IMG/VR virus record: IMGVR_UViG_3300025647_000184
Location: 1-29,461 of that record
DNA length: 29,461 bases
Strand: one strand, 5' to 3'
DNA from: a virus
The notes beneath the pieces are model-generated. The model was not told where the DNA came from. It ran no database searches and saw only the letters and a program-made list of their open reading frames with translations. The position numbers and the translations under genes were made by a program. Below, one piece after another: positions 5,405 to 23,744 of this stretch; the first letter of the stretch is position 1, and each line of letters begins with the position of its first letter.

Positions 5405-5405
5405 A

Positions 5406-6191: not shown

Positions 6192-6194
6192 AGT

Positions 6195-8746: not shown

Positions 8747-8762
8747 ATAAAGATACTCCATA

Positions 8763-9586: not shown

Positions 9587-9873
9587 GTAACACCTCTTTT
9601 TTCTACTATTCTACACTTTTTTGTTTGTAAATCTACTTTAATTATTTCTATATTTTTATTTTTAATTCTAGGAACTCTAGATATAGAGCTTCCATCTTTT
9701 CTTTTATTCTCTGTTTTAACGTCAAATAATCTAGTTTTAAATGTTATAGGATCTATTGCAACTAAGTCTACAGCTGATTGTGTTTGGCATGCTTTAAATA
9801 CAAAAAAATTATTTTCTTGTAACCAACAAACAGCTAAATTTTCTGCGTAACAACCTTTATTTTTATTAATCAC
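9577..9873 (-). CDS. PD-(D/E)XK nuclease-like protein, GTG start
   Basis: The frame begins with GTG at 9871-9873, four bases after the stop of the large ejection protein; no in-frame ATG precedes the conserved core, so GTG is the likely start. The 98-residue product has the order E11 in GCYAENLA, D36 in AVDLVAID, then DVK at 51-53. This is the E...D...(D/E)xK metal-binding core of the PD-(D/E)XK superfamily, most like small group-I-intron-type or resolvase-like endonucleases. It could resolve branched phage DNA before packaging, or degrade host DNA. The ribosome site is weak (AAAGAAAG). It overlaps the amidase start by 10 bases, so it is translated with the lysis genes. Confidence 0.72.
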   Translation of the reverse strand: MINKNKGCYAENLAVCWLQENNFFVFKACQTQSAVDLVAIDPITFKTRLFDVKTENKRKDGSSISRVPRIKNKNIEIIKVDLQTKKCRIVEKRGVTWS

Positions 9874-9876
9874 TCA

Positions 9877-12800
9877 TTAATCTTTCTTTAACTTTTTCTC
9901 AAATTCCATTTGTTCTAAGTTAATATTTTTAGCTTTTTCACCTTTTATAAACATATTAATTAATTTTTTAATTTTAGGTGTTAAATATTTATCTAAATAT
10001 TTAGGAGCAGTTGCGCCAGTTTTTCCTACTACAGCATTTACTACTGAATCAATAGGAGTAAATATATCAGGTGATCCTGGTGGTACATCTTCTCCTGATA
10101 CTCTTTCTGTAATTTTATCTTCCATATATTCTTTAGCATATAATGGATTAGTTTTGAAACTATAAGTTTTTCTAGGCAAATAATCTTGTGCTGCTTGTAA
10201 TACTTTTTTAAATAAATTTTTATGTTCGGGTTTACTACTTTCGCCTAATCTATCTAACCATCTAGGATAGTTTCCTGCTAAAAATTGATTTTTAACAGCT
10301 TGTGTAAATTTAGTATAATCTGCTAATAAATCTAAACTGTCTCCACCTAAATCCATACCATCATAAATACGACCTAGTCTATTAACAATTAATCTTTTAT
10401 GGTTTAATGGTCCTGCAAATATATCGATAAATAAACCTGCTCTATTAGCAGCTTCTGTAAGACCTTCTCCAGCTTTACCGCCTAAATCGGGAGCTTGAAC
10501 AAGTTTTAAAACTTTAGATATACTTCTATATGATTCTACAAATTCTTTTCCATATAGATTATCTAAGACACCTTTATTAGAAGTTAAAAAATCATCTAAT
10601 AAATTACCATTTAAGGCTTTTACATTACTTCCTTCTATTGGTGTTTTAACTGCATTCATCATTTTTTGTAAATACAACTTTCTAATATCAGTAGTTAATT
10701 GATTTGATGTAAGTGATAATTTTTTAATTAATGGTTTGATATCGTATTTATTTCCTATTCTAAATATTTCATCAGCAATAGCTGTACCAGTTCCTTTATC
10801 TAATAAATCTATTTTTAAAGAAGGTAATTCTTTAGATACAATATTTTGTATATCAGCATTTTGTTTTACAAGATCATCATATAATTTCATCGCTGATCCA
10901 GTATCTTTTGCAAATTTATTGTATAAATCATCTCCTAAAATTAATCTATAATTGTCTCCATATTTTTTAATAAAGTTTGCATGTGACATAGCACCACTAG
11001 CACCAGCTTCTTTTGGTAAAACATTATCATAATAATGTTGATAAAGTGATCCTTTAATTTTATTAGTTTGATTAAAGTTTAAAAATTTACCATCAATTAG
11101 ATTTCCTAATCTTTCAGCATTATTTAATCCTTCTTTAGTACTAGCTGTAATAGAATCAAATACATTTCTACCAGTACCAGTTAAACTTGCTGATCTAATT
11201 ACTTGAGGTTTAGGACCATATCCTATTTCGTCAGCTAATTTATTTAAAAAACTATTTTTATAATTAAATAATAAAGTATCATATTCTCGATATAAAGCTG
11301 CAGTTTTTGGATCTTTTGAAACAGCATCATCAATAGCATCATTAAATATTCCTTTTAAATTTCTTATTGCGTCTTTAGTACCTTTAGGTACAGCATCTGT
11401 AATATCTATATTTTGTAAAGCTCTCTTAATAGCTAATGCATTATTAAAACTTAAATTTTCAATACTATTAACACCTTCTTTTAATATTTTTAATTGGTTT
11501 TTTACTAAACCAAATTGTCCACCATTTTGTTCTAAAAAATCTACAAATTCATTTATAGTTTTTTGATTTTTCCATTCTGCTAAAGCTTTTTTACCTTTAG
11601 GTGGAGTAGGTGATATTTTCTTTTTTATAGTTAAATCATATTCATTAAATATATTTTTTAATACTTGTGTTCCTTTTTCATCAAGTTGAACTGTTAATTG
11701 ATTTTTTTTAGCAGAAGTATTTATTCTATTTTGTAATAAAGATAATCTTGAATTAAGTTTTTCATTAACTTCATTGAACACAATACCCATTTTATCAATT
11801 TGATTTGTTTCATATGTTTTATATAAATTATCTTTAACTCTTTGAGTATTTGCAAAAGCTTGTTTAACACCTTTATCAGATGCGACTAATTCATCTTCTC
11901 TTATATTTTTAACATTCTTTTCTATGTTATTAATAATATTATCACTTGTTTTAACATTAATATCATCAAGACCAGTAGTATATTTTAATATTTTATTTTC
12001 TACTTCTTTATTTTTAACTCTTTCATTTGCTGAATTTAAAATCTTTTTATATATTCTATCTCCTTTAGTACCTTTAGGAATTATACCACTTTCAGGTATC
12101 ATATTTGCTACACTAATTGCAATATAGTCATTTGCTATATCATCACTAACTCCAGCATTTTTTAAAACTGTTCTAGCTTCATTTATTGCTTTAGTCATTT
12201 CTTCATCTATACTTCCACCTGTTTTTAAAAATTTACCAACAGTATCTCTAGATAATCTTTCGTTTCCAACCATGAAAACTTGTTGTTTAATTATTTTTGC
12301 TAAAGGTAAAAATGCTGCAGTTGCAACCGCATCAATTGCTCCTGTAGTTGCTGCTTCTTTAAAAGCGTATGCTCCAAATTGTTCATCGTCCATATAATCA
12401 AAAAGGCCATACTTTCTTCCTAATTGTAATCTATAATATTCAGCACCAGCAGCTGCTAGTCCTGATCCAGCAACAGTTCCTCCAGGACCAAACGCTGATC
12501 CAACAGTTCCTGCTGTAATACTTGCTCCTATTACCATAGCATCACCAGCAAAACCTTGAAGATCAGAAGTATCAAACCCTGGTTTATTAAAAGTATAAAA
12601 GTAACCATCTCCACCTAATTCTTTAGGTATAGAAAAAACTAAACCAGTATATGCATCATTACCTTCACCTACTTGTTGATTTTTTACTTTTATCTTATCT
12701 TTATATTGATCAACTAATTCTTTATCAAGTCCTTGATTTTGTACAAGATCCTCTGCTAATAATCTTTTAGCTCCAAAAATTTGAGCATCTGGAGTTTTAC

Positions 12801-13173
12801 CTCCAAAACTTAATCTATATCTTACATCAGCAGGAGCTTCCTTATCAGTTCTTACACCATAAAGATTAAATGTTTCTCCTTTAGATGGCATATAATAAGC
12901 AAGAGCTTCATCTACACCTTCCATATATAGTTCATCATATGTTGATCTATCTTTTTTTATTTTAGATGTTGTGCTTTGTATTAAATCGTAATCGTAACCT
13001 TGACTTGCTAATATTTCTTTTTTAGTTTGAGGTTTTTGTTTAGTTTGTAATTCTGATAAATAAGTATCTTTATCAATAGCTCCAGTAACTAAACCTTCAG
13101 CAGTCTTTTCATCAAGTCCATTACTAATAAGTTTATTGTAAACATTCTTTTGTTGAGTAGAAAGTTCTGCCAT
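9877..13173 (-). CDS. large internal virion / DNA-ejection-type protein
   Basis: At 1098 residues this is the largest gene. The N-terminal 200 residues are soluble and charged. A Gly/Ala-rich hydrophobic segment follows at about 207-245 (GDAMVIGASITAGTVGSAFG within it), with a second weaker one at about 278-293. The rest is helical, Lys/Asn-rich and coiled-coil-like. One long, mostly helical protein with a glycine-rich membrane-active patch, placed after the tail genes and before lysis, fits ejection proteins that form the channel for DNA entry (compare the position of T7 gp15/gp16). I see no lytic transglycosylase motif. The start follows the preceding stop by only four bases and has no Shine-Dalgarno, suggesting reinitiation. 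The specific function is inferred from size and context. Confidence 0.62.
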   Translation of the reverse strand: MAELSTQQKNVYNKLISNGLDEKTAEGLVTGAIDKDTYLSELQTKQKPQTKKEILASQGYDYDLIQSTTSKIKKDRSTYDELYMEGVDEALAYYMPSKGETFNLYGVRTDKEAPADVRYRLSFGGKTPDAQIFGAKRLLAEDLVQNQGLDKELVDQYKDKIKVKNQQVGEGNDAYTGLVFSIPKELGGDGYFYTFNKPGFDTSDLQGFAGDAMVIGASITAGTVGSAFGPGGTVAGSGLAAAGAEYYRLQLGRKYGLFDYMDDEQFGAYAFKEAATTGAIDAVATAAFLPLAKIIKQQVFMVGNERLSRDTVGKFLKTGGSIDEEMTKAINEARTVLKNAGVSDDIANDYIAISVANMIPESGIIPKGTKGDRIYKKILNSANERVKNKEVENKILKYTTGLDDINVKTSDNIINNIEKNVKNIREDELVASDKGVKQAFANTQRVKDNLYKTYETNQIDKMGIVFNEVNEKLNSRLSLLQNRINTSAKKNQLTVQLDEKGTQVLKNIFNEYDLTIKKKISPTPPKGKKALAEWKNQKTINEFVDFLEQNGGQFGLVKNQLKILKEGVNSIENLSFNNALAIKRALQNIDITDAVPKGTKDAIRNLKGIFNDAIDDAVSKDPKTAALYREYDTLLFNYKNSFLNKLADEIGYGPKPQVIRSASLTGTGRNVFDSITASTKEGLNNAERLGNLIDGKFLNFNQTNKIKGSLYQHYYDNVLPKEAGASGAMSHANFIKKYGDNYRLILGDDLYNKFAKDTGSAMKLYDDLVKQNADIQNIVSKELPSLKIDLLDKGTGTAIADEIFRIGNKYDIKPLIKKLSLTSNQLTTDIRKLYLQKMMNAVKTPIEGSNVKALNGNLLDDFLTSNKGVLDNLYGKEFVESYRSISKVLKLVQAPDLGGKAGEGLTEAANRAGLFIDIFAGPLNHKRLIVNRLGRIYDGMDLGGDSLDLLADYTKFTQAVKNQFLAGNYPRWLDRLGESSKPEHKNLFKKVLQAAQDYLPRKTYSFKTNPLYAKEYMEDKITERVSGEDVPPGSPDIFTPIDSVVNAVVGKTGATAPKYLDKYLTPKIKKLINMFIKGEKAKNINLEQMEFEKKLKKD

Positions 13174-13177
13174 TTTA

Positions 13178-14458
13178 TTATTTAGGTTTATTTATTAACT
13201 CATTAGTTATTTCATTTTGAATTAAACTTTGTATATTTTGTTCTTGTGCTGCTGCAGTTTTTTTATAAGTATCAAAATAACTAGTTGTTTCTCCTTTGAA
13301 TTGAGGCTCTAATGTTTGATAATAATAAGCATTAATAATTCTAAATGGATTAGCATCTTCTGCTGTACCAAATAAATCAATTAAACTTTGATCTGTTACT
13401 TTATCTTTTAATTGATCAGCTAAAGCTTTAGCTGCTTTTTCATTTGCAACCTGTTCAAATTCAATATTTTTATTTATAAATGCTTCTTCTTTAGCAAAAC
13501 TAGGTATTTTATTATTAATTTCCATCAAAGTTTTTTGTGCAGCGACAAGTTTTCTTAGAGCTTGTGGGTTAGTTCCAATATCACCTATTGTACTTAATAA
13601 CACTTGAATATCTTTATCAGAAGCTGGATATAAATCTTTTACTTGAGATACAATAGCTTGTTTAGTTGCAGCAGAAAATAAATCTTTAAAAGCAACTTTG
13701 TCTTCAGCAGATAAATCTTGACCTGGTTCATATTTAGATACACTTGCTTCTAAACTTCTAAATTTATCAGATAAACCGCCACCTAATTCAGAAAATACTT
13801 TTTCAAATGGAGTTAAAAACTCTGAAACTAAACCAGTTGGTGCTTCAAAACCTTTTTGAGCTAATTTATATAACTCAATATATCTTTGATCTAGTGCGCC
13901 ATATTGTTTTTTTAAATCTCTCATTCTTGTTTGAAACTCTGGATATTCTTTTAAAATAGCTTCACTTATATCATCTCTAAATCTAGGAGGTTCTCCTTTT
14001 AATGCTTTTTCTAAAGAAGCTTGTGCTTTTATTTTTTCAGTTTCAGCAGCTGAACGTTTTTGACCAATAGCTTCTGATTCTAAAAATCCTTTTTTCTGTC
14101 CTTCTGCAAACATACCTATAGCAGACTTAGCTTGTCCTATTGGTGTATAAGATGATGCTGATATTAATGTATTTAAACCAGATAAAAATTGTTGTCTTTT
14201 TTCTCGATCATCATAGACAGATTCCATTTTTTTATCTATACCTTCAGTAAAAGAAGATAAAGCATCACCTACAGAAGATACAAATTGTTTAAATCCACCT
14301 TCTTTATAATCATTAATTTTTTTATCTTTTTTTAAATCGTCTAAATCAGAATATTCATCTAAATTTATTCTTTCAGCTTCTCTTTCTTCAAAAGTTTTTT
14401 TTACTGCTTCTGTTAAAGCTTTACCGCCTTGTACTTCGATTTTATTTTCTTCTTCCAT
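13178..14458 (-). CDS. probable internal virion protein, helical
   Basis: A 426-residue, strongly charged, mostly helical protein. The first 150 residues contain long Glu/Lys-rich stretches and a moderately hydrophobic segment (FLSGLNTLISASSYTPIG); the rest alternates short helices. No catalytic motif or named domain was recognised. AGGAGG precedes the ATG. It lies between a Gln/Ala-rich structural protein and the 1098-residue ejection-type protein, in the same place where short-tailed phages carry their set of two to four core proteins. I infer a role inside the capsid or as a partner of the large protein. Confidence 0.55.
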   Translation of the reverse strand: MEEENKIEVQGGKALTEAVKKTFEEREAERINLDEYSDLDDLKKDKKINDYKEGGFKQFVSSVGDALSSFTEGIDKKMESVYDDREKRQQFLSGLNTLISASSYTPIGQAKSAIGMFAEGQKKGFLESEAIGQKRSAAETEKIKAQASLEKALKGEPPRFRDDISEAILKEYPEFQTRMRDLKKQYGALDQRYIELYKLAQKGFEAPTGLVSEFLTPFEKVFSELGGGLSDKFRSLEASVSKYEPGQDLSAEDKVAFKDLFSAATKQAIVSQVKDLYPASDKDIQVLLSTIGDIGTNPQALRKLVAAQKTLMEINNKIPSFAKEEAFINKNIEFEQVANEKAAKALADQLKDKVTDQSLIDLFGTAEDANPFRIINAYYYQTLEPQFKGETTSYFDTYKKTAAAQEQNIQSLIQNEITNELINKPK

Positions 14459-14466
14459 TTAACCTC

Positions 14467-15297
14467 CTAAAAACTAGCGAGAGCTTGACCTGCTCCAACT
14501 AATTGCATAAATGGACTAGGTGATCCTACTGGTGTTCCAACATATCCTGATCTTTCTTCTCCATAAGTTCTTATAGGTGCTCCCGCTAATGCACCAACCA
14601 TTTGTCTAATTTGTCCTGCTGGATATTCTCTTTCTTCAATGAAATCTCTGTATTGTTCAGCAAGTTGTGCTTGTTCTATTCCTCTTGCTAAACTACCATA
14701 TTGAGCTAAACCTTGTGCTGCTCCGGCAAGTCCTGATAATTGAGATTGTGCCGCTTGTAATTGTGCTGCTCTATCTTGAGCAAATCTTTGTGCACCAGAT
14801 TCAAAACCTGCTTGTCTTAATCTACTTGATACATCAGAAACTTGATCAAAATATCTTTCTCTACCTAAAGCTCGTTCAACACCTTCTCTAGATCCACCAA
14901 AAGCTCCTGCACCAATTGCTTGTGCTGCCATTCCTCTTTGTTGTTGACCATAAGCTTCTCCTAAATCAGATAATGTTGATTGAATTACAGCTTCTTGATA
15001 TGGATTCATATATTGTTGCATTGTAGCAGTATCAAAAGTTTGTGCTCCTATTTGAGCTAACTGTCCTGCTTGTGGTAAAATTTGTGTGCTATAGACATTA
15101 GCAACTTGTTGTTCTTGTGGAGTAAGTCCAGCTACACGTTGACCAGTGTAGCCTTGATAAGGTTGTGTAAAAACATTTTCTGCTGTACGCAATGTTCGTT
15201 CTTGAATCTCTTTAAAGTATTCAGGAATTTGTGAAGTAACAGTTTGTTGACTTGGTGCTTGAACAACAGTTGTTTGTGGTTTAAAGATACTACCCAT
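14467..15297 (-). CDS. Gln/Ala-rich virion-associated protein
   Basis: A 276-residue protein rich in Gln, Ala and Gly. It has a disordered N-terminus (MGSIFKPQTTVVQAPSQQ), a segment MQQYMNPYQEAV, and a Gly-rich block GAGAFGGSREGVER, then a long Ala/Gln helix. The MNPY and GAFGGSRE elements recur in structural proteins of marine podoviruses and siphoviruses that I recall as unassigned virion proteins. Its start overlaps the end of the GNAT gene by 8 bases; GGAGG occurs 12 bases upstream. Function is not known; a core or tail-associated role is inferred from its place between the tail and ejection genes. Confidence 0.55.
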   Translation of the reverse strand: MGSIFKPQTTVVQAPSQQTVTSQIPEYFKEIQERTLRTAENVFTQPYQGYTGQRVAGLTPQEQQVANVYSTQILPQAGQLAQIGAQTFDTATMQQYMNPYQEAVIQSTLSDLGEAYGQQQRGMAAQAIGAGAFGGSREGVERALGRERYFDQVSDVSSRLRQAGFESGAQRFAQDRAAQLQAAQSQLSGLAGAAQGLAQYGSLARGIEQAQLAEQYRDFIEEREYPAGQIRQMVGALAGAPIRTYGEERSGYVGTPVGSPSPFMQLVGAGQALASF

Positions 15298-15745
15298 TGA
15301 TTATATATGTTCCTCCAATATTTTTATATCCTAATTTGACAAAGGCGTTGTGTTTTCTTTCAACGTCTTTACCTTGAAATATTTCGCATATCGCTGTAAC
15401 TTTTCTAGCTAATGCGTATTCTTTAAAAACTAACATTATAGCTTTAAAGATATGAAAGTTTCGATACTTAGGATTCATATGTAACCATAAAGTTCTTAAA
15501 AACTTTTTGTCACTATACCAAGTTTCGTCTATTGTAGCAGCCATAGTTCCTACAATATTATTTTCATATTCCACTACTATAACAAAACTATTACGAATGT
15601 AAAATATTATATTTTCAAGAGCTTTTTTATTATTAGTGTTTCCAAAGTTAAATGGAGCTTCTATTAGCCATGTTTTAAGTAATTCTCGTATTCTAACAGC
15701 GTCATCTATACGAGCTAATCTAATCTTATATTTATCTTTTTCCAT
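15290..15745 (-). CDS. GNAT-family N-acetyltransferase
   Basis: A 151-residue protein with the GNAT layout: an N-terminal strand-helix unit (KIRLARIDDAVRIRELL), a central strand FVIVVEYENNIVGTMAA, a core strand LRTLWLHMNPKYRN at about 83-96, then the helix FKAIMLVFKEYALAR. It ends in the typical NAFVKLGYKNIGG element. The acetyl-CoA pyrophosphate loop (usually R/Q-x-x-G-x-G/A) is degenerate here, reading KYRNFHIF, so acyl-CoA binding should be verified. Such genes recur between structural genes of short-tailed marine phages; substrates are unknown. It overlaps the tail gene before it by 14 bases and the next gene by 8. Confidence 0.72.
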   Translation of the reverse strand: MEKDKYKIRLARIDDAVRIRELLKTWLIEAPFNFGNTNNKKALENIIFYIRNSFVIVVEYENNIVGTMAATIDETWYSDKKFLRTLWLHMNPKYRNFHIFKAIMLVFKEYALARKVTAICEIFQGKDVERKHNAFVKLGYKNIGGTYIING

Positions 15746-17576
15746 CTGGTCTTACATTGATTCTTAATGTACCAAATCGCCAATTACTACCTAATTCGTC
15801 ACTTTCTATTTTAATGGAAGATTGTCTACCTCGTATTCTAGAATTATAAAAAGCTGTCGTATTTGAGACCGTTATAACCTCTCCTGAAGTCTTAGAGCTA
15901 TTAGGATAATCTCTAGCTGATAAAGTAATAGTAGCATTACCAGTTTGATTTTTAAAGTCAGGTATAACTTTATTTATAAAAGTAAATGTTTCTCCATCAG
16001 CAATGTCACCATCACCTGATTGTATGTAAGCAGTGATCGCTGATCCATCAGCATCAACGCCATCTTCATGACGATAGATTAAAGAACGACCAGGTGTTAA
16101 ACCATATATAGTTGAATATGTATTAGCTGTAGAATTAGCAAAATATTCTGTAGCTAAAGGATTTAATTCTACTCCATTATCTATATATGTACTTCTTGAT
16201 AAATTACCAAAATACCAACTATTTTCTAAATGATTATAGATTACATATTTATCAATAAAATTAGATGAAGCTGAACAATAATACCAAATAACTTCAGAGA
16301 AGTCAGAAGTTTGACCAGCATAAACTTGAGCATATTGAGTTTTATTTATATCATCAAATATATGATTTAATATAGGACAAGGTATTTCTTGAACAGCACC
16401 AGCAAATCTAAAGAATTGCCCATCGGACATCCAATAAGCTACGTCATCTATTACAATTGCACTATTCAATCCAATAGCTCCGCAATCATTACCGAGTTGA
16501 CGAAAACCAAATATAAAAGGTGGACCAATAAAAGACATTGAATGTAATGTTGTATCTGTCCATACAAGTATAGTTCCTTTTGCTGGTTTAGCTGTTCTTA
16601 TTTCAGAACCTCCAGCAATTCTTTGAGAGCCTGCTGAGTTAGTTGCGTTAGCAAACCAAAAATTATAATTTTCTTGATCTGACCATCTTATAAATAATTT
16701 ATCTTGTGTATCAGGTGTACCTATAGTAGTTTCTGTTCCCATACAAATTAAATGTCTAGTTTCTGTAGATACTAAAGATAACGTAGAAGCAGTAGGAGCA
16801 TTAGCTATTTGTGTAGCTCTATTATCAGTCATACCTGCTGATTCATCCCATTCATAAGTAGCTCCATCTCTTTGAGTTAAAATTAAATCTTCTCCCCAAT
16901 TGTTTAAAGACCATTGTCTCATATCAAGAGTAACTTCTGATGTAGTTCTAGGAGTATTCCAAGTACTTTCTGAATATGTACCAGCTGACCAACCATATCC
17001 AAAAGTTTGAGTAGTAGGACCAATATTTAATTGATAAGATATATCAGCATTTGCTGAATCAGTTACTGTAGAAGTAGCTGTACCTGGTGTAGTTATAGTA
17101 TAAGCACTTGAATTATTTATTTGGACTATTTCAAATTCATTTTCTAAATCAGAAATAGTAATACCTCCTACATTTGCTGATACATTAGATATGGTTATAA
17201 ATGAACCTAAAGTTGCGCCATGAGAGGCATGATTAACTATTACATTAGAGCTAGTATCCGTAGTAGTAAATACAGAAGTTAAACTGTTAGATTGTTTAAT
17301 AGGAGTAATATCTTGGTTATCTCCTGATCTATATGTATAAACTTTTTTATCTCCTCCAATACATTGATAACGAGTACCATCTAAACTTATCCAAGAAGCT
17401 ATACCTGCTTGTCGTCCTACATAATAATCTTGACTAAATTTAGTCCATCCACCTATTTTTTGAGGTAAACCTTTTCTAAATCTAATCTTATCACAATCTG
17501 TCCATCTACCTTCCGCACCTGTTTCGGTGTTTTCAGTATCTAAACCAGGTTGAAAATTCAATTGAGTTAATGGCAT
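15732..17576 (-). CDS. large beta-rich tail or stabilisation-like structural protein
   Basis: A 614-residue protein beginning MPLTQLNFQPGLDTENT, followed by WTDCDKIRFRKG and LPQKIGGW within the first 45 residues. That opening (a DCDKIRFR-like motif followed by KIGGW) is a recurrent signature of marine phage tail proteins often annotated as P22 gp10-like stabilisation or tail tube proteins. The remainder is rich in Thr, Ser, Asn, Gly and aromatics, suggesting beta propeller or beta sandwich domains. There is no clear Shine-Dalgarno; an AT-rich hairpin and 46 noncoding bases separate it from the oxygenase cassette, so it may start a new transcript. Its role as a tail nozzle or plug protein is inferred. 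Confidence 0.6.
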   Translation of the reverse strand: MPLTQLNFQPGLDTENTETGAEGRWTDCDKIRFRKGLPQKIGGWTKFSQDYYVGRQAGIASWISLDGTRYQCIGGDKKVYTYRSGDNQDITPIKQSNSLTSVFTTTDTSSNVIVNHASHGATLGSFITISNVSANVGGITISDLENEFEIVQINNSSAYTITTPGTATSTVTDSANADISYQLNIGPTTQTFGYGWSAGTYSESTWNTPRTTSEVTLDMRQWSLNNWGEDLILTQRDGATYEWDESAGMTDNRATQIANAPTASTLSLVSTETRHLICMGTETTIGTPDTQDKLFIRWSDQENYNFWFANATNSAGSQRIAGGSEIRTAKPAKGTILVWTDTTLHSMSFIGPPFIFGFRQLGNDCGAIGLNSAIVIDDVAYWMSDGQFFRFAGAVQEIPCPILNHIFDDINKTQYAQVYAGQTSDFSEVIWYYCSASSNFIDKYVIYNHLENSWYFGNLSRSTYIDNGVELNPLATEYFANSTANTYSTIYGLTPGRSLIYRHEDGVDADGSAITAYIQSGDGDIADGETFTFINKVIPDFKNQTGNATITLSARDYPNSSKTSGEVITVSNTTAFYNSRIRGRQSSIKIESDELGSNWRFGTLRINVRPDGKR

Positions 17577-17601: not shown

Positions 17602-17627
17602 TATAAAAATATAGTGCTATTTTTATA
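17602..17627 (-). terminator. AT-rich hairpin with T-tract between oxygenase cassette and tail gene
   Basis: Positions 17602-17611 and 17618-17627 form a perfect 10-bp stem around a six-base loop. On the minus strand the stem is followed by A then TTTTT at 17596-17600. It covers the stop codon of the last oxygenase gene. The stem is all A/T, which makes a weak terminator, so an attenuator or chance hairpin is also possible. The next gene starts 26 bases further on. Confidence 0.35.
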
Positions 17628-18207
17628 TATAAGAAAACCAGCCTGTTACAATATACTTTTCATTCTTTTTATTTACAATTCCTTTATGAGTATGAGTAAA
17701 TGCAGCGGGCCATATTAAAGTTAATCCTTTTTTACAAGGTGTTTTTAGCTTTTGATAAAAAAATTCTGTACCTGCATTTTCTACATCATTTAAATAAGTC
17801 ATAAATACAAGCACTCTTTGAGATGTTTCTTTTTGTGCATTTTCAAAATGAAATACTTTATAGCCACCTTTTGGTGGGTAATGTTGAATTGAATAATTTT
17901 CTTTTACATTAAATTTAGCATAACCATTTACATATTTATATTTTTTAATATATTTTTCTAAACATTTTTGTAAGGCAATTCTATATTCACCTACAGGATG
18001 ATTAAAATAATTAGGTGCTAAAATTAAATCATTTGAATCTTTAATAGATTTATTAACAGATTCCACGTCATCATACATTATTCTTCCTTCTTGGGTATAT
18101 TCTTTATTCTGTTGATGTAGTGAAATTAAATTATCACATATTTTATTATCTATAAACCAACCTCCTATAAAAGAATCAAAAGGTAACTTATATTCTTTTA
18201 ACTTCAT
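17623..18207 (-). CDS. 2OG-Fe(II) oxygenase (prolyl 4-hydroxylase-like, HxE variant)
   Basis: The 194-residue protein shows the double-stranded beta-helix order of the P4H-like group. SIQHYPPKGGY at 106-116 leads to the metal motif H120-F-E122. After RVLVFMTYLNDVENAGTEF (131-149) comes the distal THTH (171-174), then EKYIVTGW, whose K184 stands where 2-oxoglutarate is bound. The iron triad is therefore H-x-E...H rather than H-x-D...H. The family oxidatively hydroxylates amino acid side chains or small molecules, with release of succinate and CO2. The ATG forms an ATGA overlap with the upstream methyltransferase. It is the last gene of the seven-gene cassette; substrate unknown. Confidence 0.82.
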   Translation of the reverse strand: MKLKEYKLPFDSFIGGWFIDNKICDNLISLHQQNKEYTQEGRIMYDDVESVNKSIKDSNDLILAPNYFNHPVGEYRIALQKCLEKYIKKYKYVNGYAKFNVKENYSIQHYPPKGGYKVFHFENAQKETSQRVLVFMTYLNDVENAGTEFFYQKLKTPCKKGLTLIWPAAFTHTHKGIVNKKNEKYIVTGWFSYI

Positions 18208-18713
18208 TCGTATAAATGTTTATAGTTTTTTTCAGTGAAGAAAACAGAAGTTACTGAAACTTTATCATCATACCTTTTACCAAAGAAGTCTAAACATAAA
18301 TACCTTTGTCTTAAATAATTAAATGCATCTAAATTCCAAAGACCATTATCAAGTAATATTATAAAATCATTTTTTCTATTTTCATCAACAAATTTAGCAA
18401 AATCAAACCTGTTTATGTAGCTAGGGTCATTATCAATCATAACGTAATCTGGTTTTTTATTAAGTTCTTTAATTAAAAGATCCCCTATATTTTTTTTATT
18501 AAATAGTTTCAAATCTACGTTTTTAAATTTTTGTTTTTTAATTTTATTGAACCATTTTTTATCATTTTCAAGGCTTACTATTTTTTTAAAATATTTTGCA
18601 AAATATAATGTTGAATAACCAGAACCTATTTCAAGATAAGTTTTATCTCTGTTATCTACTGTTTTAAAATAATTTAAAAAAGGTTTAGTTAATAATGGTT
18701 TATCTTTTATCAT
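18204..18713 (-). CDS. class I SAM-dependent methyltransferase-like protein
   Basis: A 169-residue Rossmann-type protein. Motif I YLEIGSGYST is at about 26-35 and the acidic residue closing strand 2 is E49 in IVSLEND. Strand 4 is YVMIDNDPS at 90-98, followed by IILLDNG at 118-124. These match small methyltransferases of the Methyltransf_24/FkbM-like type, which often act on sugars or small molecules; no DNA-methylase catalytic motif (DPPY/NPPC) is present. At 169 residues it is a minimal fold with little room for a substrate domain. GGAAGAG precedes the start, which lies 14 bases inside the preceding oxygenase gene; the stop overlaps the next gene (ATGA). It is embedded in the oxygenase cassette, suggesting a shared substrate pathway. 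Confidence 0.7.
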   Translation of the reverse strand: MIKDKPLLTKPFLNYFKTVDNRDKTYLEIGSGYSTLYFAKYFKKIVSLENDKKWFNKIKKQKFKNVDLKLFNKKNIGDLLIKELNKKPDYVMIDNDPSYINRFDFAKFVDENRKNDFIILLDNGLWNLDAFNYLRQRYLCLDFFGKRYDDKVSVTSVFFTEKNYKHLYE

Positions 18714-19239
18714 CTCTTCCTTTAAAAGTAGAAGAAAAATTAAAACTCATTCCCCATTTTGTATCTTTATGTCTATGTCTTTTACACCCATGATTTAAAA
18801 AAGAAGAAAATAATGCAAATTTACCTTTTTCTGGTTTTATTTTTCTTTTAATCGTTGGGAAATCTAATGTTTGAGGATGATCATTTAAATAAATAGCCCC
18901 TGACCATATAGCAGGTGAGTGATTATGGAACTGAGTCCTATTTCCTGTTCTAACACAATAACCCCAAGAATCTTGTAATAAATAAGAATTTAATCTAATT
19001 CTTTCATCTATATATTTTATAAATATATCTAATATTTTTGAAAACTCTTCATCGTCATTAAAATAAGTATAAGAAGTCATTAAATCTCTAATATTTGTTT
19101 TGAACCCCATATTAGTATTTTGATCAAAACCTTCTTTAATTTTTTTAATAAAATACTCTGCATCTATATCCATAGTGCCTTCTATAAAAAAATAATCAGT
19201 TAAAGCTACATCTTCAATATGGTGGTCTATTAAAATCAT
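18700..19239 (-). CDS. 2OG-Fe(II) oxygenase of the HxH subfamily
   Basis: The 179-residue protein fits the putative 2OG-FeII oxygenase family that uses an N-H-x-H pattern. QFHNHSPAIWSGAIYLND (103-120) holds H105 and H107, GKFALFSSFLNHG (139-151) supplies the distal H150, and KWGMSFNFS (161-169) has K161 where most members have Arg. A helical N-terminal lobe (about 24-90) precedes the barrel, as in phage relatives. Substrate unknown. The start overlaps the preceding unknown gene in an ATGA arrangement. It is not a close relative of the other three oxygenases here, judging from the different metal motifs. Confidence 0.75.
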   Translation of the reverse strand: MILIDHHIEDVALTDYFFIEGTMDIDAEYFIKKIKEGFDQNTNMGFKTNIRDLMTSYTYFNDDEEFSKILDIFIKYIDERIRLNSYLLQDSWGYCVRTGNRTQFHNHSPAIWSGAIYLNDHPQTLDFPTIKRKIKPEKGKFALFSSFLNHGCKRHRHKDTKWGMSFNFSSTFKGRDDKR

Positions 19240-19598
19240 ATTGTTATATTCCAGTCTAATTTATTTATTAACTCCTCTATCTTTATATCTTTTAAATTAT
19301 TATTTTTTACATAAAAAAACAACTCTTCCATATCAATTATGATCCATTTTTTATTTAAATAAAAAACCATTTTGTCTGCTTTACTTTTAAAACTTCCTAC
19401 TTTAAAACCTTCTTTTTGAATAGGTCTAGTATCAAATTTTAATTTTTGGTTTAATCTATTTCTAAGAATCCCTGATATATTCCACAATTCATTTTGTTGT
19501 TCTTTAGTTGGATATTCTATATCCTCTAAATATCTTTCAAATAATTTATTTAGGTTTTTGGAATTCTCTTGGGATTCCAACATAAGGTCTTCTGTCAT
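19236..19598 (-). CDS. hypothetical protein within the oxygenase cassette
   Basis: A 120-residue protein: a helical, Asn/Gln/Glu-rich N-terminal half (LFERYLEDIEYPTKEQQNEL) and a C-terminal half with strands (KADKMVFYLNKKWIIIDMEE). No domain was recognised, and it has none of the His/Asp pattern of its neighbours. The start at 19598 overlaps the previous oxygenase gene by 53 bases; an ATG at 19583 is the alternative. The stop overlaps the next oxygenase (ATGA). Such firm coupling suggests it acts with the enzymes, for instance as an adaptor, but that is inference. Confidence 0.65.
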   Translation of the reverse strand: MTEDLMLESQENSKNLNKLFERYLEDIEYPTKEQQNELWNISGILRNRLNQKLKFDTRPIQKEGFKVGSFKSKADKMVFYLNKKWIIIDMEELFFYVKNNNLKDIKIEELINKLDWNITI

Positions 19599-20181
19599 AT
19601 TTATTTTCTTCAGCTCCTTCTGAAGTTATTTTATTATAATGTAAAAAAACTTGAGCACAATGTAGTCCTTCAAATTTCTCTCTCCAATGCTCTCTTTCAC
19701 ATCCTTTATAAATTAACATATCTCCTTGTTTTAAATCTATTTTAACACCTTTAGTATTAGTTCTTTTATTTTTAGCAACATAGATAGGCCATTCATTACC
19801 ACCTAAAAGAATAGTTGTAGACACCTCGCAACTAAATCTATCTTTATGTCTTTTAAGGATGTCACCTGTTTTATAAAGCCTTGCATAAGTGTAAGTAGGG
19901 TAAACTTCACATTTTATAGCTTTTTCTAGTTTTGGTTTTATAGCTAATAGTAAAGTTTCCATTGCTATATCTGCATACACACTATAAGTGCCAGGAATCA
20001 TATCTTTTTCTGTTTCAAAACCTCCATAAGTATCAATACAAACATGTTTATATTTATGATAATATAAAAATTTAGTAACTTCTCTTTTTAATAAAAGATA
20101 ATTATATAAAAATTTAGCTGTATCTTTTGAAACAGCTTTTCTAACAATAACATAACCTTTTTTATCAAATTCAGTTTTCAT
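19546..20181 (-). CDS. 2OG-Fe(II) oxygenase (HxD type, phage family)
   Basis: In the 211-residue protein the metal motif is H112-K-D114 in LKRHKDRFSCEVSTTI. It is followed by LLGGNEWPIYVA, then GDMLIYKGCEREHW with H165 as the likely distal ligand, and FEGLHCAQVFLHY closing the barrel. An upstream segment MIPGTYSVYAD (61-71) together with the metal motif is typical of a cyanophage/marine phage oxygenase family that I recall by its PGTYSVYxD-type signature. The start gives no clear Shine-Dalgarno, but the preceding stop is only one base away. The C-terminal tail (RRPYVGIPREFQ) is Pro/Arg-rich. Substrate unknown. Confidence 0.78.
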   Translation of the reverse strand: MKTEFDKKGYVIVRKAVSKDTAKFLYNYLLLKREVTKFLYYHKYKHVCIDTYGGFETEKDMIPGTYSVYADIAMETLLLAIKPKLEKAIKCEVYPTYTYARLYKTGDILKRHKDRFSCEVSTTILLGGNEWPIYVAKNKRTNTKGVKIDLKQGDMLIYKGCEREHWREKFEGLHCAQVFLHYNKITSEGAEENKYDRRPYVGIPREFQKPK

Positions 20182-20182
20182 T

Positions 20183-20794
20183 TTATTTAAAAGGTGCTCC
20201 TAATGACCAAGAAACTAAACTATATCTAGTCCCACTTATAACAGGTTTAACTCTATGCCACATAAAAGATGGAAATACAATTACTGTCCCTTTTTGTCTT
20301 AGTTCTTTTATTGTAACAATTCTACGAACATCTTTTATTTCTTTTTTATCTTTCATAGGTTTATCTCTAAAATCCATTTGAAATTCACCACCTTTATATT
20401 TAGATCCATCAGATAAAGCAACAACAGTGCTTAGTTTTCTATACTTACCTCTATAGTTAACATACTTATGATCATCTGGATAACATTCAGGTGAACTATC
20501 TTGGTGCCAATTATAATATTGATTTAGTTTATATTTTGTAAATTGAAAAGATTCTGTAAAATCCCATTGAAAATTCCAATCTGCTTCTTTATTTGCATGA
20601 TGTATAAAAGGATTAATAAGATCATACAATTCTGGATCATCAGAAAATATAACATCAGAGTTTCTAACTTTTATACTACCACCTTTTATTGTACCTTTAT
20701 GAAGATTTTTAGAATAAAGTTTTTCTACAATATTATCACAGGTTTTATCAGGTATACCTCTAGTGAAGTAATAATAATAGTTTTTTAAAATCAT
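20183..20794 (-). CDS. 2OG-Fe(II) oxygenase (PKHD/prolyl hydroxylase-like, complete site)
   Basis: This 203-residue protein has the most canonical site of the four: H97-Q-D99 in NQYYNWHQDSS, distal H180 in VIVFPSFMWHRV, and the 2-oxoglutarate Arg R190 in GTRYSLVSW. The barrel strands LSTVVALSD and YKGGEFQM between them match PiuC/PKHD-type hydroxylases. Predicted reaction: O2- and 2OG-dependent hydroxylation of a protein residue or small molecule. No Shine-Dalgarno is visible before the ATG, so it may be translated by coupling to the upstream gene, whose stop lies 5 bases away. Confidence 0.85.
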   Translation of the reverse strand: MILKNYYYYFTRGIPDKTCDNIVEKLYSKNLHKGTIKGGSIKVRNSDVIFSDDPELYDLINPFIHHANKEADWNFQWDFTESFQFTKYKLNQYYNWHQDSSPECYPDDHKYVNYRGKYRKLSTVVALSDGSKYKGGEFQMDFRDKPMKDKKEIKDVRRIVTIKELRQKGTVIVFPSFMWHRVKPVISGTRYSLVSWSLGAPFK

Positions 20795-20799
20795 TTATG

Positions 20800-21342
20800 T
20801 TATTGTTCAACGCAAGTCCAAGTTATGTATTCTCTATTTTTTTCATCTAAGTTTTTAGAAAAATAATAGTCTATATTAGAATTGAAAACATAAAAGTTTC
20901 CCTGTTGAACATGACAAGTGTCTACATAAATTTTTTGATTTGGTTTTTTATATTTTAAAACCAATTCTCCAGCATTATCTCCTGCTTGTAAAATATATAT
21001 TAAAGTATGAGTAGGTTGATTTTGAATATCTTGTATATTTAAATTATTTCTTGTAACAGATATTTCATTAAAGTTTTCTATATTTGCCCAAACTTTATTA
21101 TTTACAATAGATAAATTTTGATAAGCATAAACTTGTTGTCTAATTAAATCAAGAATCCAAGAATGTTGGCCATGATAAGTTAAAGGTATATCATAAGTTT
21201 TATTAGTTACATCAAATGTAGCTTTATCTAAATCTTTTTTAAGACTTTCACTTATTTTGTCATTATCTATTTTAGAATTAGGTGTTCTTATATTACCTAT
21301 AATAAGACTTAATTTTGAAAGGGTAATCTCTTGAGATTCCAT
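20800..21342 (-). CDS. oxygenase-like beta-barrel protein lacking the iron ligands
   Basis: No domain is obvious at first sight in this 180-residue protein, but its order follows the HxH oxygenase at 18700-19239. VWANIEN (84-90) corresponds to the Trp strand before the metal motif. VTRNN (96-100) stands where HxH is expected. HTLIYILQAGDNAGELVLKY (112-131) mirrors the strand pair after it. GNFYVFNSNIDYYF (148-161) mirrors the strand with the distal His, here replaced by Tyr. NREYITW keeps the Arg (R170). All three iron ligands therefore appear lost. It could be a non-catalytic partner or ligand-binding protein. The homology is my inference from pattern, not from a search. It is the first gene of the cassette; no Shine-Dalgarno is visible. 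Confidence 0.5.
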   Translation of the reverse strand: MESQEITLSKLSLIIGNIRTPNSKIDNDKISESLKKDLDKATFDVTNKTYDIPLTYHGQHSWILDLIRQQVYAYQNLSIVNNKVWANIENFNEISVTRNNLNIQDIQNQPTHTLIYILQAGDNAGELVLKYKKPNQKIYVDTCHVQQGNFYVFNSNIDYYFSKNLDEKNREYITWTCVEQ

Positions 21343-21350
21343 ATGTTATA

Positions 21351-22256
21351 TTATTTGAATTTGTATCTAATAACTACAATACCTGAACCACCTGAGCCAC
21401 CATTAAGACCAATGTTAGGAGGAGTAAAGCCTCCGCCACCGCCTCCACCACCTGTGTTGGCGTCACCTGGTTGACCTGATGTAATCATTACTTCTGGACT
21501 GTTTGTTCCAGCGCCGCCTCCGCCTTGACCGCCTTGGCCACCTGGAGGGTTACCTTGGTCTGGACGACCTGATCCTCCACCGCCACCTGCAGTGAATTGA
21601 GATGAACCTCTTATAGTTAATGCAGTACCTTGTCCTCCTTGAGAACCTGGAGCTGGAGTTGCTGTATTAGCGTGACCTCCGCCACCGCCTGATGAATTTT
21701 CTGATTGTGTAGGTACACCAGGTTTTCCTTCAGCTGGAGAGTATCCCCCTGAATTTCCAGAACCACCTCCGCCGCCGTTTCCGCCGCCGCCTCCACCTGA
21801 TCCCCCTGGATTACCTGAAAGACTAGACCATGAGCCACCGCCTCCGCCGCCAGATGTTGAGAAACCTAATCCTGAAGAACCACCTCCAGAACCACCTTTT
21901 GAACCTTGGTTAGTAGAACCACCTCCGCCACCACCGACTGAAATAGGGTATGAAGTTGCAGTTACAGGTTGCCCTGAGCCTTCTGGATTAGGATAAGAGA
22001 AACGCATTCCTCCTGCTCCTCCTCCGCCTCCCAATCGGCTACCACCACCAGCACCGCCAGCGACAACTAACCAATCTACAGTTTCGCCAGCTGGTGCTTC
22101 AGTTACCGTAAAAGTTCCACCTGATGTAAATGTATGAATTTTAAAATCACCGTCTTCAGTAACAGTTCCACCTGTTGCTACAATTCTTTTTTTACCTCCA
22201 GAAGTAAATCCGAAACCTTTTCCTGATCCAGCTCCTCTAGTTCCTATTAATGGCAT
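21351..22256 (-). CDS. polyglycine-rich tail adhesin-like protein
   Basis: A 301-residue protein made largely of glycine. The N-terminus (to about residue 75) is a small beta domain with FTSGGTFTVTEAP and VDWLVVAGGAGGG, the opening of the glycine-rich domain family found in phage receptor-binding proteins. Gly runs of 5-8 residues follow, interspersed with Ser, Asn, Pro and Gln. The C-terminus GIVVIRYKF closes the domain. Such sequences can pack as polyglycine type II helices, as in the S16/T2-type gp38 adhesin, exposing variable loops to the host receptor. The gene is locally far richer in G/C than the window because of Gly codons. A good ribosome site (TAGGAGCATAATATG) is present. It lies last in the fibre block, next to the oxygenase cassette. 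Confidence 0.7.
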   Translation of the reverse strand: MPLIGTRGAGSGKGFGFTSGGKKRIVATGGTVTEDGDFKIHTFTSGGTFTVTEAPAGETVDWLVVAGGAGGGSRLGGGGGAGGMRFSYPNPEGSGQPVTATSYPISVGGGGGGSTNQGSKGGSGGGSSGLGFSTSGGGGGGSWSSLSGNPGGSGGGGGGNGGGGGSGNSGGYSPAEGKPGVPTQSENSSGGGGGHANTATPAPGSQGGQGTALTIRGSSQFTAGGGGGSGRPDQGNPPGGQGGQGGGGAGTNSPEVMITSGQPGDANTGGGGGGGGFTPPNIGLNGGSGGSGIVVIRYKFK

Positions 22257-22257
22257 A

Positions 22258-22668
22258 TTATGCTCCTACCCATTGTTGATTATTTTCATCCCATGTAAAA
22301 TTTCCATCTGAATCAGGAAATGCTACAGGAGGGTCCCATGTTGCAGTTGTAACATTTAAAGTCCAACTTGGAAAGGGTTTTGCAGTAACAAATATATTAT
22401 TTATAGTATCCCAACTTCCACCAATTATGGCGTAGTTTCCTCTAAAAGCTTTTGTTTGATCATCAGCTAATGTTCCATCAGGATTATAATATTTGTTAGC
22501 TGCAGTATTATATGAAGTTTGTTTCCAATTAGAATAACCTGTAAGGTTAGTTAAAAAAGCAATTCCTGTTGCCTCATCTTCAACACCATTTAATGCCGTA
22601 TCAGAATCTGCAACTTTAGTAACATCTAATACTACGTTATTTTCATCTAACTTAGCAAATGTTGCCAT
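22258..22668 (-). CDS. small tail-fibre-associated protein
   Basis: The 136-residue protein begins MATFAKLDENNVVLDVTKV and contains KYYNPDGTLADDQTKAFRGN (58-77), then PFPSWTLN and a C-terminal WDENNQQW. This pattern, including a paired W-x-P and W-D/E-E-N-N-Q-x-W end, recurs in cyanophage and pelagiphage proteins next to tail fibres, and I recall it without an assigned function. The last W-containing segment looks like a fibre-binding tag. A strong AAGGAAAGGA ribosome region precedes the ATG, and the stop overlaps the ribosome site of the polyglycine gene. A virion role is inferred. Confidence 0.65.
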   Translation of the reverse strand: MATFAKLDENNVVLDVTKVADSDTALNGVEDEATGIAFLTNLTGYSNWKQTSYNTAANKYYNPDGTLADDQTKAFRGNYAIIGGSWDTINNIFVTAKPFPSWTLNVTTATWDPPVAFPDSDGNFTWDENNQQWVGA

Positions 22669-22688: not shown

Positions 22689-23744
22689 TTACGCAAACTG
22701 TGTTTGCGATGCTAAAACTGTAAATGTAGCTGCTCCAGTTTTGATAACCGTATAAGAATATACATCAAGTGAATTAGTATTGCCACCTGTTGGTGCTGAA
22801 CCACCTTGCCATTCTGGAGTAACAGAGGATCCATCAATTTGTACCGCTGAATTATAATATGCAGTTCCACCTTGTTTAACAATGTGAGCAATAGTTATAG
22901 ATTCACCTGTATCCATAATTGAATCTAATGAATTAGAACCATCACCTCTAATATTTAATGTCCAGTTACCTGAAGCATCTGTAGTATAATTTAATACTGC
23001 TTGTGTAATTACATCGTAGTTAACTGTTCCTGTTGCAGCAGTAGCTGAGTTTGTAATTTTTTCAGCTGTTTGTTGAATTTTACCACCACCATTAAATGTA
23101 ACTCTTCCAGCAACTCCATTAGGCGATAAAAGAATATCAGCATTAGCTGTTGTTGAAGCAACATTAGGAGCTGATCCTGCAATAGAAATTACATTAGCAG
23201 TAGCATTTAAATTTGTACCAGCAACATTTCCAGTAGAAATTACTGCTGAACCATTAATATTTGTACCAGCAACATTCCCTGAAGAAGTTACAGATGTCAT
23301 AGCTATATCACCTAAATCAGCCATTACATCAACCATAGTAGTTCCATCTGTATATACTATAGTTTTAGCACCTTGTTTAAGAGTTACACCAGTTCCACCT
23401 GTTGGACCAAAAGTTAAAGTTTGTGAACCAGTTGTATTATTGAATACAATATATTTAGTTTCTACTGCATCAGTAAATACATTAATATCTCCTGTTAATG
23501 CACCAGTAAATTCTAATATTGCATTATGTACTTGGTCATCTGTTGATGAATCATCTGTGTTAGATGTTGAATTGTTTGAAGTTAAAGTAACATTAGCAGA
23601 ACCTGCAACGTCAACTGATTGATAACCTTTTACTGATGAATCAATTCTATTAAAAACATAATTAACTAAATCACCCCAAGTTCCTGAATTTTCTCCAGAA
23701 GCTTGTCTCTCTAATTTTAATCTCGATGTATAACTTGATGGCAT
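22689..23744 (-). CDS. tail fibre protein
   Basis: The 351-residue protein starts MPSSYTSRLKLERQ, then GENSGTWGDLVN. This opening (GE..GTWG..N) is a common N-terminus of marine phage tail fibres that join the tail. It continues with Thr/Ser/Asn/Gly-rich beta repeats, including the twice-used GNVAGTN element at about 173-196 and a FNNTTGSQTLTFGPTGGTG segment, and it ends in a small compact domain. The repeats suggest a trimeric beta-fibre. GGAG lies 11 bases upstream of the ATG. A 58-base noncoding gap precedes the gene. Confidence 0.75.
   Translation of the reverse strand: MPSSYTSRLKLERQASGENSGTWGDLVNYVFNRIDSSVKGYQSVDVAGSANVTLTSNNSTSNTDDSSTDDQVHNAILEFTGALTGDINVFTDAVETKYIVFNNTTGSQTLTFGPTGGTGVTLKQGAKTIVYTDGTTMVDVMADLGDIAMTSVTSSGNVAGTNINGSAVISTGNVAGTNLNATANVISIAGSAPNVASTTANADILLSPNGVAGRVTFNGGGKIQQTAEKITNSATAATGTVNYDVITQAVLNYTTDASGNWTLNIRGDGSNSLDSIMDTGESITIAHIVKQGGTAYYNSAVQIDGSSVTPEWQGGSAPTGGNTNSLDVYSYTVIKTGAATFTVLASQTQFA

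Follow-up and report, generated by a model that had tools for sequence, protein, structure and literature searches.

A phage oxygenase run beside a glycine-rich adhesin-like protein whose proline content follows a candidate prolyl-hydroxylase pair

The viral DNA analysed here (the window, 29,461 nucleotides) carries a run of seven genes, g1 to g7, which we give an even chance of being a tail-adhesin modification block, where two oxygenases, g5 and g6, would hydroxylate prolines of the neighbouring glycine-rich protein g8 and the other oxygenases would be exchangeable accessories. The proline content of such adhesins was found to be approximately two to three times higher where the g5/g6 pair is present, a sequence correlation which suggests hydroxylation of host-recognition proteins. 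Few auxiliary genes of marine phages have been discussed as much as those for 2OG oxygenases and the 'ferrochelatase' that accompanies them, yet these lack an established function. If the adhesin reading is true, these genes would serve host recognition rather than metabolism and the iron/heme reading of 'ferrochelatase' would fall.

The seven ORFs occupy positions 17623-21342, all on the minus strand and with ATG starts. In transcription order the run follows the adhesin-like gene g8 (GLY; 21351-22256, minus strand, 301 aa) after a gap of 8 nt, where g7 (20800-21342, 180 aa) is separated by 5 nt from g6 (O6; 20183-20794, 203 aa) and g6 by 1 nt from g5 (F5; 19546-20181, 211 aa). The remaining genes overlap, g5 with g4 (U4; 19236-19598, 120 aa) by 53 nt, g4 with g3 (18700-19239, 179 aa) by 4 nt, g3 with g2 (18204-18713, 169 aa) by 14 nt and g2 with g1 (17623-18207, 194 aa) by 4 nt. 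A 46-nt gap lies between g1 and the downstream virion structural gene VS3287 (15732-17576, minus strand; phrog_3287 at 4.1e-89), which forms the boundary of the block. The tightly packed run between virion genes described in the first-pass annotation was thus confirmed in its ORFs, spacing and placement. The 53-nt overlap of g5 and g4 recurs in a related locus (L005), and the seven ORFs are regarded as real genes because homologous cassettes occur in dozens of contigs.

The most informative member of the run is g5, which matches phrog_2954 at 7e-47. The name of that family, 'ferrochelatase', is rejected here since the Pfam ferrochelatase family was matched by neither g5 nor any of 41 relatives and no ferrochelatase fold was observed among the best 50 PDB fold matches. 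The AF2 model of g5 (pLDDT 91.1, pTM 0.88) forms a double-stranded beta-helix with Foldseek matches to P4H, PHD2, EctD and AlkB, where ranks 1-8 among the PDB matches are held by the Pseudomonas putida P4H and a Dictyostelium PHD and AlkB-type structures rank below the prolyl hydroxylases. The residues of its HKD iron site (H112, D114 and H165) were invariant in 36 sequences. Judged by its predicted model, g5 is an oxygenase with a fold nearest to bacterial prolyl-4-hydroxylase. The P. putida enzyme (which binds EF-Tu; PDB 4j25 and 4iw3) shares the HxD...H iron site with g5, but identity over the match is 14-16% and the usual Arg/Lys ligand of 2OG is not evident in g5. No conserved R or K was found 9-14 residues past the distal His, the usual site of this ligand, where C175 and Q177 are conserved; R101, R115 and R167 are invariant but lie outside that position. 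The fold matches have TM values of 0.5-0.64, and similarity of this degree leaves the substrate unfixed. A search of solved structures by sequence returned no relatives for g5 or g6, and g5 had no match in NCBIfam.

In Pfam, g5 gave only a sub-threshold match to PF13532, which would fit a function on nucleic acids, either AlkB-like repair or hypermodification, with g2 methylating DNA or RNA. The weak rRNA-methylase match of g2 points the same way, as do the proposals, cited in PMC3037559, of DNA-repair roles for cyanophage 2OG proteins. We consider nucleic-acid targets very improbable given the fold ranking of g5, the membership of g1 and g6 in PF13640 and of g3 in PF13759, and the position of the block among late virion genes.

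The second core oxygenase, g6, matches PF13640 at 2.8e-13, above the cut-off, as well as phrog_61, and belongs to a single family of 112 members across 111 loci. Its HQD ligands were observed to be highly conserved, with H97 and D99 present in 110/110 sequences and H180 and R190 in 109/110. The third member, g7, lies between the adhesin pair and g6; its AF2 model (pLDDT 88.8) matched 2OG and prolyl hydroxylases in Foldseek with E-values down to 9e-7, and seven of its 36 relatives matched the 2OG oxygenase family phrog_81. No His, Asp or Glu was conserved at the ligand positions across the 36 relatives, and a profile comparison of g7 with g5 found no similarity. The metal-less barrel noticed earlier therefore corresponds to g7, which on its modelled fold we treat as a non-catalytic-looking relative of the 2OG-Fe(II) oxygenase superfamily. 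Proteins of phrog_3531 combine the g5 and g6 domains in one chain, as does, as far as can be read from the sequence, a protein of an unrelated phage-like contig (L375), whose gene adjoins that of a glycine-rich protein with 10.3% proline.

The glycine-rich protein g8 matches PF21722 (Gly_rich_2) at 9.7e-18 and phrog_2295 at 5e-46, and contains 19 prolines in 301 residues (6.3%, counted on the identical protein of locus L004). It is located beside the phrog_7759 protein (22258-22668, minus strand; 5.8e-35), a near-constant partner, and upstream of the pair is a tail-fibre-like gene (22689-23744, minus strand; phrog_5906 and the tail fiber family phrog_12796). By sequence, the glycine-rich domain and these neighbours fit a PGII-type tail adhesin. 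A glycine-rich gene was found within 2.5 kb in 74 of the 76 loci retrieved through phrog_7759. Oxygenase runs recur between this pair and a virion gene, which was VS3287 in 86 blocks, and 364 of 371 oxygenase genes fall inside the adhesin-to-VS3287 block, which forms 36% of the DNA. Each run holds 0-10 oxygenase genes, so the number in the window is not unusual, contrary to the first-pass annotation.

The glycine-rich gene or phrog_7759 lies within 5 kb of g5 at 61 of the 69 g5 loci whose upstream sequence is long enough to tell. In the 171-179 kb genomes of cyanophages S-SSM5, S-MS29, S-CAM8 and S-TIM4, homologues of g5 and phrog_7759 are separated by approximately 0.1 kb. In HTVC008M the separation is 0.6 kb, and the two genes keep their adjacency although they lie on opposite strands. 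In locus L147 the entire oxygenase run is inverted and still lies beside the adhesin. A low-complexity protein search with a cyanophage adhesin returned near relatives only. The conserved core found with the adhesin pair is g7-g6-g5 alone, and the 650 oxygenases sort into 103 subfamilies. Co-occurrence in relatives thus holds for oxygenases beside the adhesin but not for the full set of seven genes, and a single coupled multistep pathway was rejected because the repertoires beyond g7-g6-g5 vary, with g2 confined to the close clade of the window.

In the glycine-rich domain of the adhesin, proline forms 7.6% of residues at loci with g5 (78 non-redundant loci), 3.4% at loci with other oxygenases only and 2.4% at loci with none (p=4e-18 and p=2e-21 for g5 against the other two groups, respectively). 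The differences persist within loci of GC below 0.40 (p=4e-18 and 6e-10), and the pooled other proteins of the same three groups show no difference (3.5, 3.7 and 3.4%); these two controls led us to reject a general amino-acid or GC drift. Proline gave the strongest signal in 240 enzyme-residue tests. A phylogenetic regression retained an effect of +3.5 proline points (p=6e-7), weaker than the raw contrast but present, and comparisons within the same anchor class gave 7.2 versus 1.1% and 5.7 versus 2.7%. Cultured Pelagibacter phages that share one host behave likewise: adhesin proline is 3.8-11.7% in the g5-positive HTVC023P, HTVC033P, Mosig and HTVC008M but 0.9% in Greip and 1.5% in HTVC025P, where a whole-genome search with a positive control found no g5. 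These phages make the hydroxylation hypothesis directly testable. The number of oxygenases beyond g5/g6 had no added effect, and the notion that more oxygenases mean more proline was discarded (rho 0.11, p=0.44 within cassette-bearing loci). The adhesin is therefore the best-supported of the substrates proposed at first, as it is syntenic with g5 and its proline tracks g5/g6, but glycine and asparagine, also put forward as targets, were dropped since neither is enriched with the cassette.

We propose that g5 and g6 may work jointly on the approximately 20 prolines per g8 chain, during its synthesis and assembly late in infection. The resulting hydroxyprolines would stabilise extended polyproline/polyglycine-II-like strands, alter the chemistry of receptor-binding loops, or both. 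The g7 protein, having lost its metal site, would probably be a non-catalytic partner that, for example, holds or presents the adhesin. The increase in proline is similar near GG stems and in loops. P-G pairs account for 28.5% of prolines with g5 and 20.6% otherwise; both values are below the glycine content and so a collagen-type X-Pro-Gly specificity is merely suggestive. It is also possible, although we lean slightly against it, that tailed phages widely share a so far unrecognised class of post-translational modification, where a dedicated prolyl-hydroxylase pair with exchangeable oxygenases diversifies the adhesin and recognition depends on both adhesin sequence and enzyme repertoire.

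The enzymes might instead modify the virion chiefly elsewhere than at adhesin prolines. The targets would then be the product of phrog_7759, the adjacent fibre, different residues of the adhesin, or sugars carried by any of these. The block does sit among virion genes, the linkage to phrog_7759 is as tight as that to the adhesin, and some subfamilies track other residues; subfamily 4, for example, correlates with adhesin cysteine within g5-positive loci (p=1e-7). However, proline in the phrog_7759, fibre and VS3287 proteins was not raised where the cassette is present, and adhesin glycine and asparagine are unchanged, which makes this alternative rather improbable.

A stronger competitor, though still an unlikely one, is that the fibre-to-tail junction is a hotspot for cargo insertion, the oxygenases are auxiliary metabolic genes (AMGs) acting on host metabolites or on 2-oxoglutarate levels, and the proline richness of the adhesins goes with g5-carrying phages through common ancestry or ecology alone. 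This view has been published for pelagiphages, as the AMG label (PMC9599517, PMC11561400), and for cyanophages, as a 2OG/NtcA link (PMC3037559). The variable repertoires agree with it, as do the few independent origins of g5 (six parsimony changes on the phrog_7759 tree); grouping by phrog_7759 at 45% identity left too few clusters for significance. Other uses are indicated by g5 paralogues among replication genes in ACG-2014f and Syn30 and by a homologue in a cyanobacterial NRPS/PKS cluster. In syn9, g5 and many oxygenases accompany glycine-rich fibres of just 2.2-2.6% proline, and five loci (L055, L056, L059, L062 and L074) have g5/g6 and no glycine-rich protein. The cargo explanation does not account for a proline shift confined to the adhesin that follows g5/g6 and not other oxygenases, for the two-domain protein of L375 beside a proline-rich glycine-rich protein, or for adjacency retained despite differing strands. 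Since g5 and g6 almost always occur together, the responsible enzyme cannot be named.

Clusters of 2OG-Fe(II) oxygenase and 'ferrochelatase' genes have already been published for HTVC023P-type pelagiphages (Wittmers et al. 2022, PMC9599517; PMC11561400) and seasonal viromes show an enrichment of these genes (PMC11561400). The published clusters involve the same phrog_61 and phrog_2954 families in the same phage group, with the ferrochelatase always adjoining a 2OG gene, but were described as AMGs with a true ferrochelatase and no tie to an adhesin, whereas here the 'ferrochelatase' has a predicted prolyl-hydroxylase fold and the set is tied to adhesin proline. Neither the fold re-assignment nor the proline link was found in the literature searched. 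Cyanophages similarly carry many diverse 2OG genes, often near fibres (Sullivan et al. 2010, PMC3037559), with 24 in S-SCSM1 (PMC9602691), and S-SM1, S-SSM5 and S-TIM4 have g6 and g5 homologues; the roles proposed in the available parts of these papers are 2OG/nitrogen signalling or DNA repair, with no substrate protein named there. The collagen prolyl hydroxylase of PBCV-1 (PDB 5c5t) is also virus-encoded and linked to viral structural proteins (PMC9301287 cites the presence of 4-hydroxyproline in proteins of viruses), but that is an algal virus with collagen-like substrates rather than a tailed phage with a glycine-rich adhesin. The T2/S16-type gp38 PGII sandwich and Pam3 gp24 (PMC12892980, PMC9608196) resemble g8 in having a glycine-rich receptor-binding domain with GGGG motifs, but the available parts of these sources report no modifying oxygenases, and g8 has its 19 prolines. 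In the literature searched on phage tail fibres together with hydroxyproline, prolyl hydroxylase or 2-oxoglutarate, we found no hydroxylated phage tail adhesins.

The accessory genes g1 and g3, and g2 in the clade of the window, may act on further residues or on additional fibre proteins. The presence of g1, g3 and g4 varies between loci; g4 is recurrent but not universal, matched no family in our searches, and an alignment of 21 diverse relatives showed seven invariant columns. The eight non-redundant homologues of g2 share an invariant LEIGSGxST motif of the class I methyltransferase type, but the profile matches (RrnaAD, of the rRNA-methylase type, in 7/8) are all sub-threshold and g2 is a putative methyltransferase. 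Both accessory oxygenases exceed the Pfam cut-offs, g1 with PF13640 at 2.4e-8 (phrog_61 at 1.4e-33) and g3 with PF13759 at 2.4e-9 (phrog_81 at 7e-14). In g1 the HFE ligands H120, E122 and H174 and also K184 are kept in 29/29 relatives. In g3 the HNH ligands H105, H107 and H150 and also K161 are kept in 23/23, and the H105-x-H107...H150 arrangement makes its second iron ligand non-canonical. The metal motifs of the four oxygenases are of the types first described, one HxE, one HxH and two HxD: HFE in g1, HNH in g3, HKD in g5 and HQD in g6.

The record under study is a virus sequence of 29,461 bases in which seven ORFs (g1 to g7, numbered against transcription) occupy positions 17623-21342. All start with ATG and lie on the minus strand and, as the first-pass annotation described, are joined by 1-53 base overlaps or gaps of at most 8 bases; the metal motifs it assigned were found to be correct and are kept in relatives. 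In Pfam, g1 and g6 match PF13640 and g3 matches PF13759, with a sub-threshold match only of g5 to PF13532 and no family found for g4 and g7. In PHROGs, g1 and g6 belong to phrog_61, g3 to phrog_81 and g5 to phrog_2954 ('ferrochelatase'). The cassette is flanked on its 5' side by g8, a glycine-rich adhesin-like protein recognised by PF21722, together with a phrog_7759 protein and a tail-fibre-like protein, and on its 3' side by a virion structural protein (phrog_3287). The window block (17623-22256) was observed at 99-100% protein identity in three other IMG/VR records (L002, L003 and L004) and this phage population is therefore recurrent.

The comparison of gene strings covered cultured phages and IMG/VR contigs, about 170 in all. 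The recurrent order is fibre, adhesin and phrog_7759 (either order), g7, g6, at least one oxygenase, g5, more oxygenases and the phrog_3287 protein. In loci where the block is complete, it makes up 36% of the DNA but contains 364 of the 371 oxygenase genes. The number of oxygenase genes per block ranges from 0 to 10, so the window set is of ordinary size and not the rarity it was first taken for. In one locus (L147) the stretch from phrog_7759 (4931-5341) to the phrog_3287 gene contains an uninterrupted run of seven genes on the opposite strand, of which six encode oxygenases. The g6 proteins form a single coherent family with about one member per locus (112 members, 111 loci), the other oxygenases among 650 in total fall into about 100 subfamilies (45 singletons) and the putative methyltransferase g2 is restricted to the window's clade. 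A conserved core with changing accessories explains this better than a seven-step pathway, and the earlier idea of a fixed seven-gene unit is wrong.

Residues H112, D114 and H165 are invariant in a 36-sequence alignment of g5; as a caveat, no clear candidate is seen for the Arg/Lys that normally anchors 2OG. The best PDB matches of its AlphaFold2 model (mean pLDDT 91) are Pseudomonas putida prolyl-4-hydroxylase, Dictyostelium PHD, EctD and PHD2. Two published interpretations use the name 'ferrochelatase' (PMC9599517, PMC11561400). No ferrochelatase family was matched in Pfam or NCBIfam and no ferrochelatase occurred among the top 50 PDB fold matches, so that this name is not supported here. 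The first half of phrog_3531 is matched by g5 and its second half by g6, and a 369-residue protein of L375 has a g5-like domain followed by a further domain that contains an H-x-D motif; the presence of both domain types in one polypeptide suggests that g5 and g6 work together. In L375, an Opitutae MAG contig, this two-domain protein is encoded in a phage-like fibre region (5052-6969) together with a small protein and a glycine-rich protein of 10.3% Pro, which makes an independent instance of the pairing. For g7, a 2OG-oxygenase fold is predicted (pLDDT 88.8, Foldseek matches to 2OG oxygenases). Of 36 relatives, 7 fit the phrog_81 oxygenase profile, but the set of 36 shows no conserved metal ligands; the preferred reading is that g7 is a non-catalytic relative.

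The adhesin and phrog_7759 are a near-obligate pair: a search with phrog_7759 as query added 76 loci, of which 74 have the adhesin within 2.5 kb and 37 also an oxygenase within 4 kb. With enough upstream sequence, either partner lies within 5 kb of g5 in 61 of 69 loci. Homologues of g5 and phrog_7759 are about 100 bases apart in the cyanophages S-SSM5, S-MS29, S-CAM8 and S-TIM4 (171-179 kb genomes), and 0.6 kb apart on opposite strands in HTVC008M. As the complete oxygenase run of L147 is also inverted with its position retained, adjacency does not depend on co-transcription alone. Leprecan-like (prolyl 3-hydroxylase-like) ORFs are annotated within the oxygenase blocks of S-SSM5 (16782-17300) and S-TIM4 (16784-17350), in line with the proline theme.

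In a first comparison, glycine-rich proteins had 6.9% Pro beside oxygenases versus 2.4% without, with equal Gly. After near-duplicate removal the values were 7.3 and 2.2% (p=2.5e-10); no such rise was seen in other proteins of the same loci, and the Pro-rich group had lower rather than higher GC. In low-GC loci, adhesin Pro was 7.9% where g5 and g6 were present but 2.6% where the oxygenases were all of other kinds (p=1e-6). Two added scans, selected on phrog_7759 alone, gave 278 non-redundant adhesins, of which 183 with enough flanking sequence were analysed. Pro was 7.6% with g5 (n=78), 3.35% with other oxygenases only (n=47; p=4e-18) and 2.4% with none (n=58; p=2e-21), and the same contrasts held at GC<0.40 (p=4e-18 and 6e-10, AUC 0.97). 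The g5-Pro pairing ranked first among 240 enzyme-by-residue tests. The contrast also held among adhesins sharing an N-terminal anchor, with 7.2 versus 1.1% (p=0.007) and 5.7 versus 2.7% (p=0.011). Phylogenetic regression on the phrog_7759 tree kept 3.5 additional points of Pro (p=6e-7, best-fitting lambda 0.72); parsimony gives only six g5 changes, and statistical power was lost under coarse clustering. Adhesin Pro follows g5/g6, which cannot be separated statistically, and not oxygenases generally.

Among phages of Pelagibacter HTCC1062, adhesin Pro is 3.8-11.7% in the g5-positive HTVC023P, HTVC033P, Mosig and HTVC008M, and 0.9 and 1.5% in the g5-negative Greip and HTVC025P. It is 5.0-7.9% in g5-positive cyanophages (S-SM1, S-SSM5, S-MS29, S-CAM8, S-TIM4, S-RSM4 and Bellamy) and 0.8-3.5% in g5-negative Melnitz-2, CRP-207 and DSL-LC04. 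A search with a positive control found g5 absent from the whole records of the g5-negative phages. The block also occurs in two Pelagibacteraceae single-cell genomes (adhesins 6.3-6.7% Pro), which ties such phages to this host group.

Related glycine-rich adhesins have a packed stem of glycine-rich strands and variable receptor-recognising loops, as described in PMC12892980 and PMC9608196. Each adhesin domain has about 22 prolines in g5-positive loci versus 7, with the rise seen near GG stems and in loops alike. By analogy with collagen, hydroxylation at these sites would be expected to stabilise extended strands and to provide the tip with additional hydrogen-bonding groups. We infer g5/g6 catalysis, the adhesin as substrate and this phenotype. 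The joint, adhesin-directed function proposed for the cassette is probable for the core pair g5/g6, by synteny and adhesin Pro. The oxygenase/'ferrochelatase' family combination is already published (PMC9599517, PMC11561400); within the searchable literature, neither the phrog_2954 re-assignment nor the connection of g5/g6 with adhesin proline seems to have been described before.

There are exceptions. In syn9, the glycine-rich fibres next to a large cluster of oxygenase genes and a g5 homologue contain only 2.2-2.6% Pro, 'ferrochelatase'-annotated g5 homologues in ACG-2014f (13974-15062, a 362-residue long form) and Syn30 (13878-14477) lie among replication genes and not beside adhesins, and a few loci have g5/g6 without a glycine-rich protein; g5 therefore has no single universal context. 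The syn9 region (4259-14438), after the fibre-assembly genes, holds two tryptophan halogenase genes, at least eight oxygenase genes and the g5 homologue. A tryptophan halogenase is likewise found in HTVC008M, close to the terminase gene, and these observations possibly reflect further virion-protein modification. In g5-positive loci, the presence of oxygenase subfamily 4 tracks adhesin Cys (0.89 versus 0%, p=1e-7), which may be due to common descent or to a second enzyme with residue specificity. In the cyanobacterium Brasilonema sp. CT11, a g5 homologue (5956-6627) is located between NRPS and PKS genes, which suggests a use in peptide natural-product tailoring.
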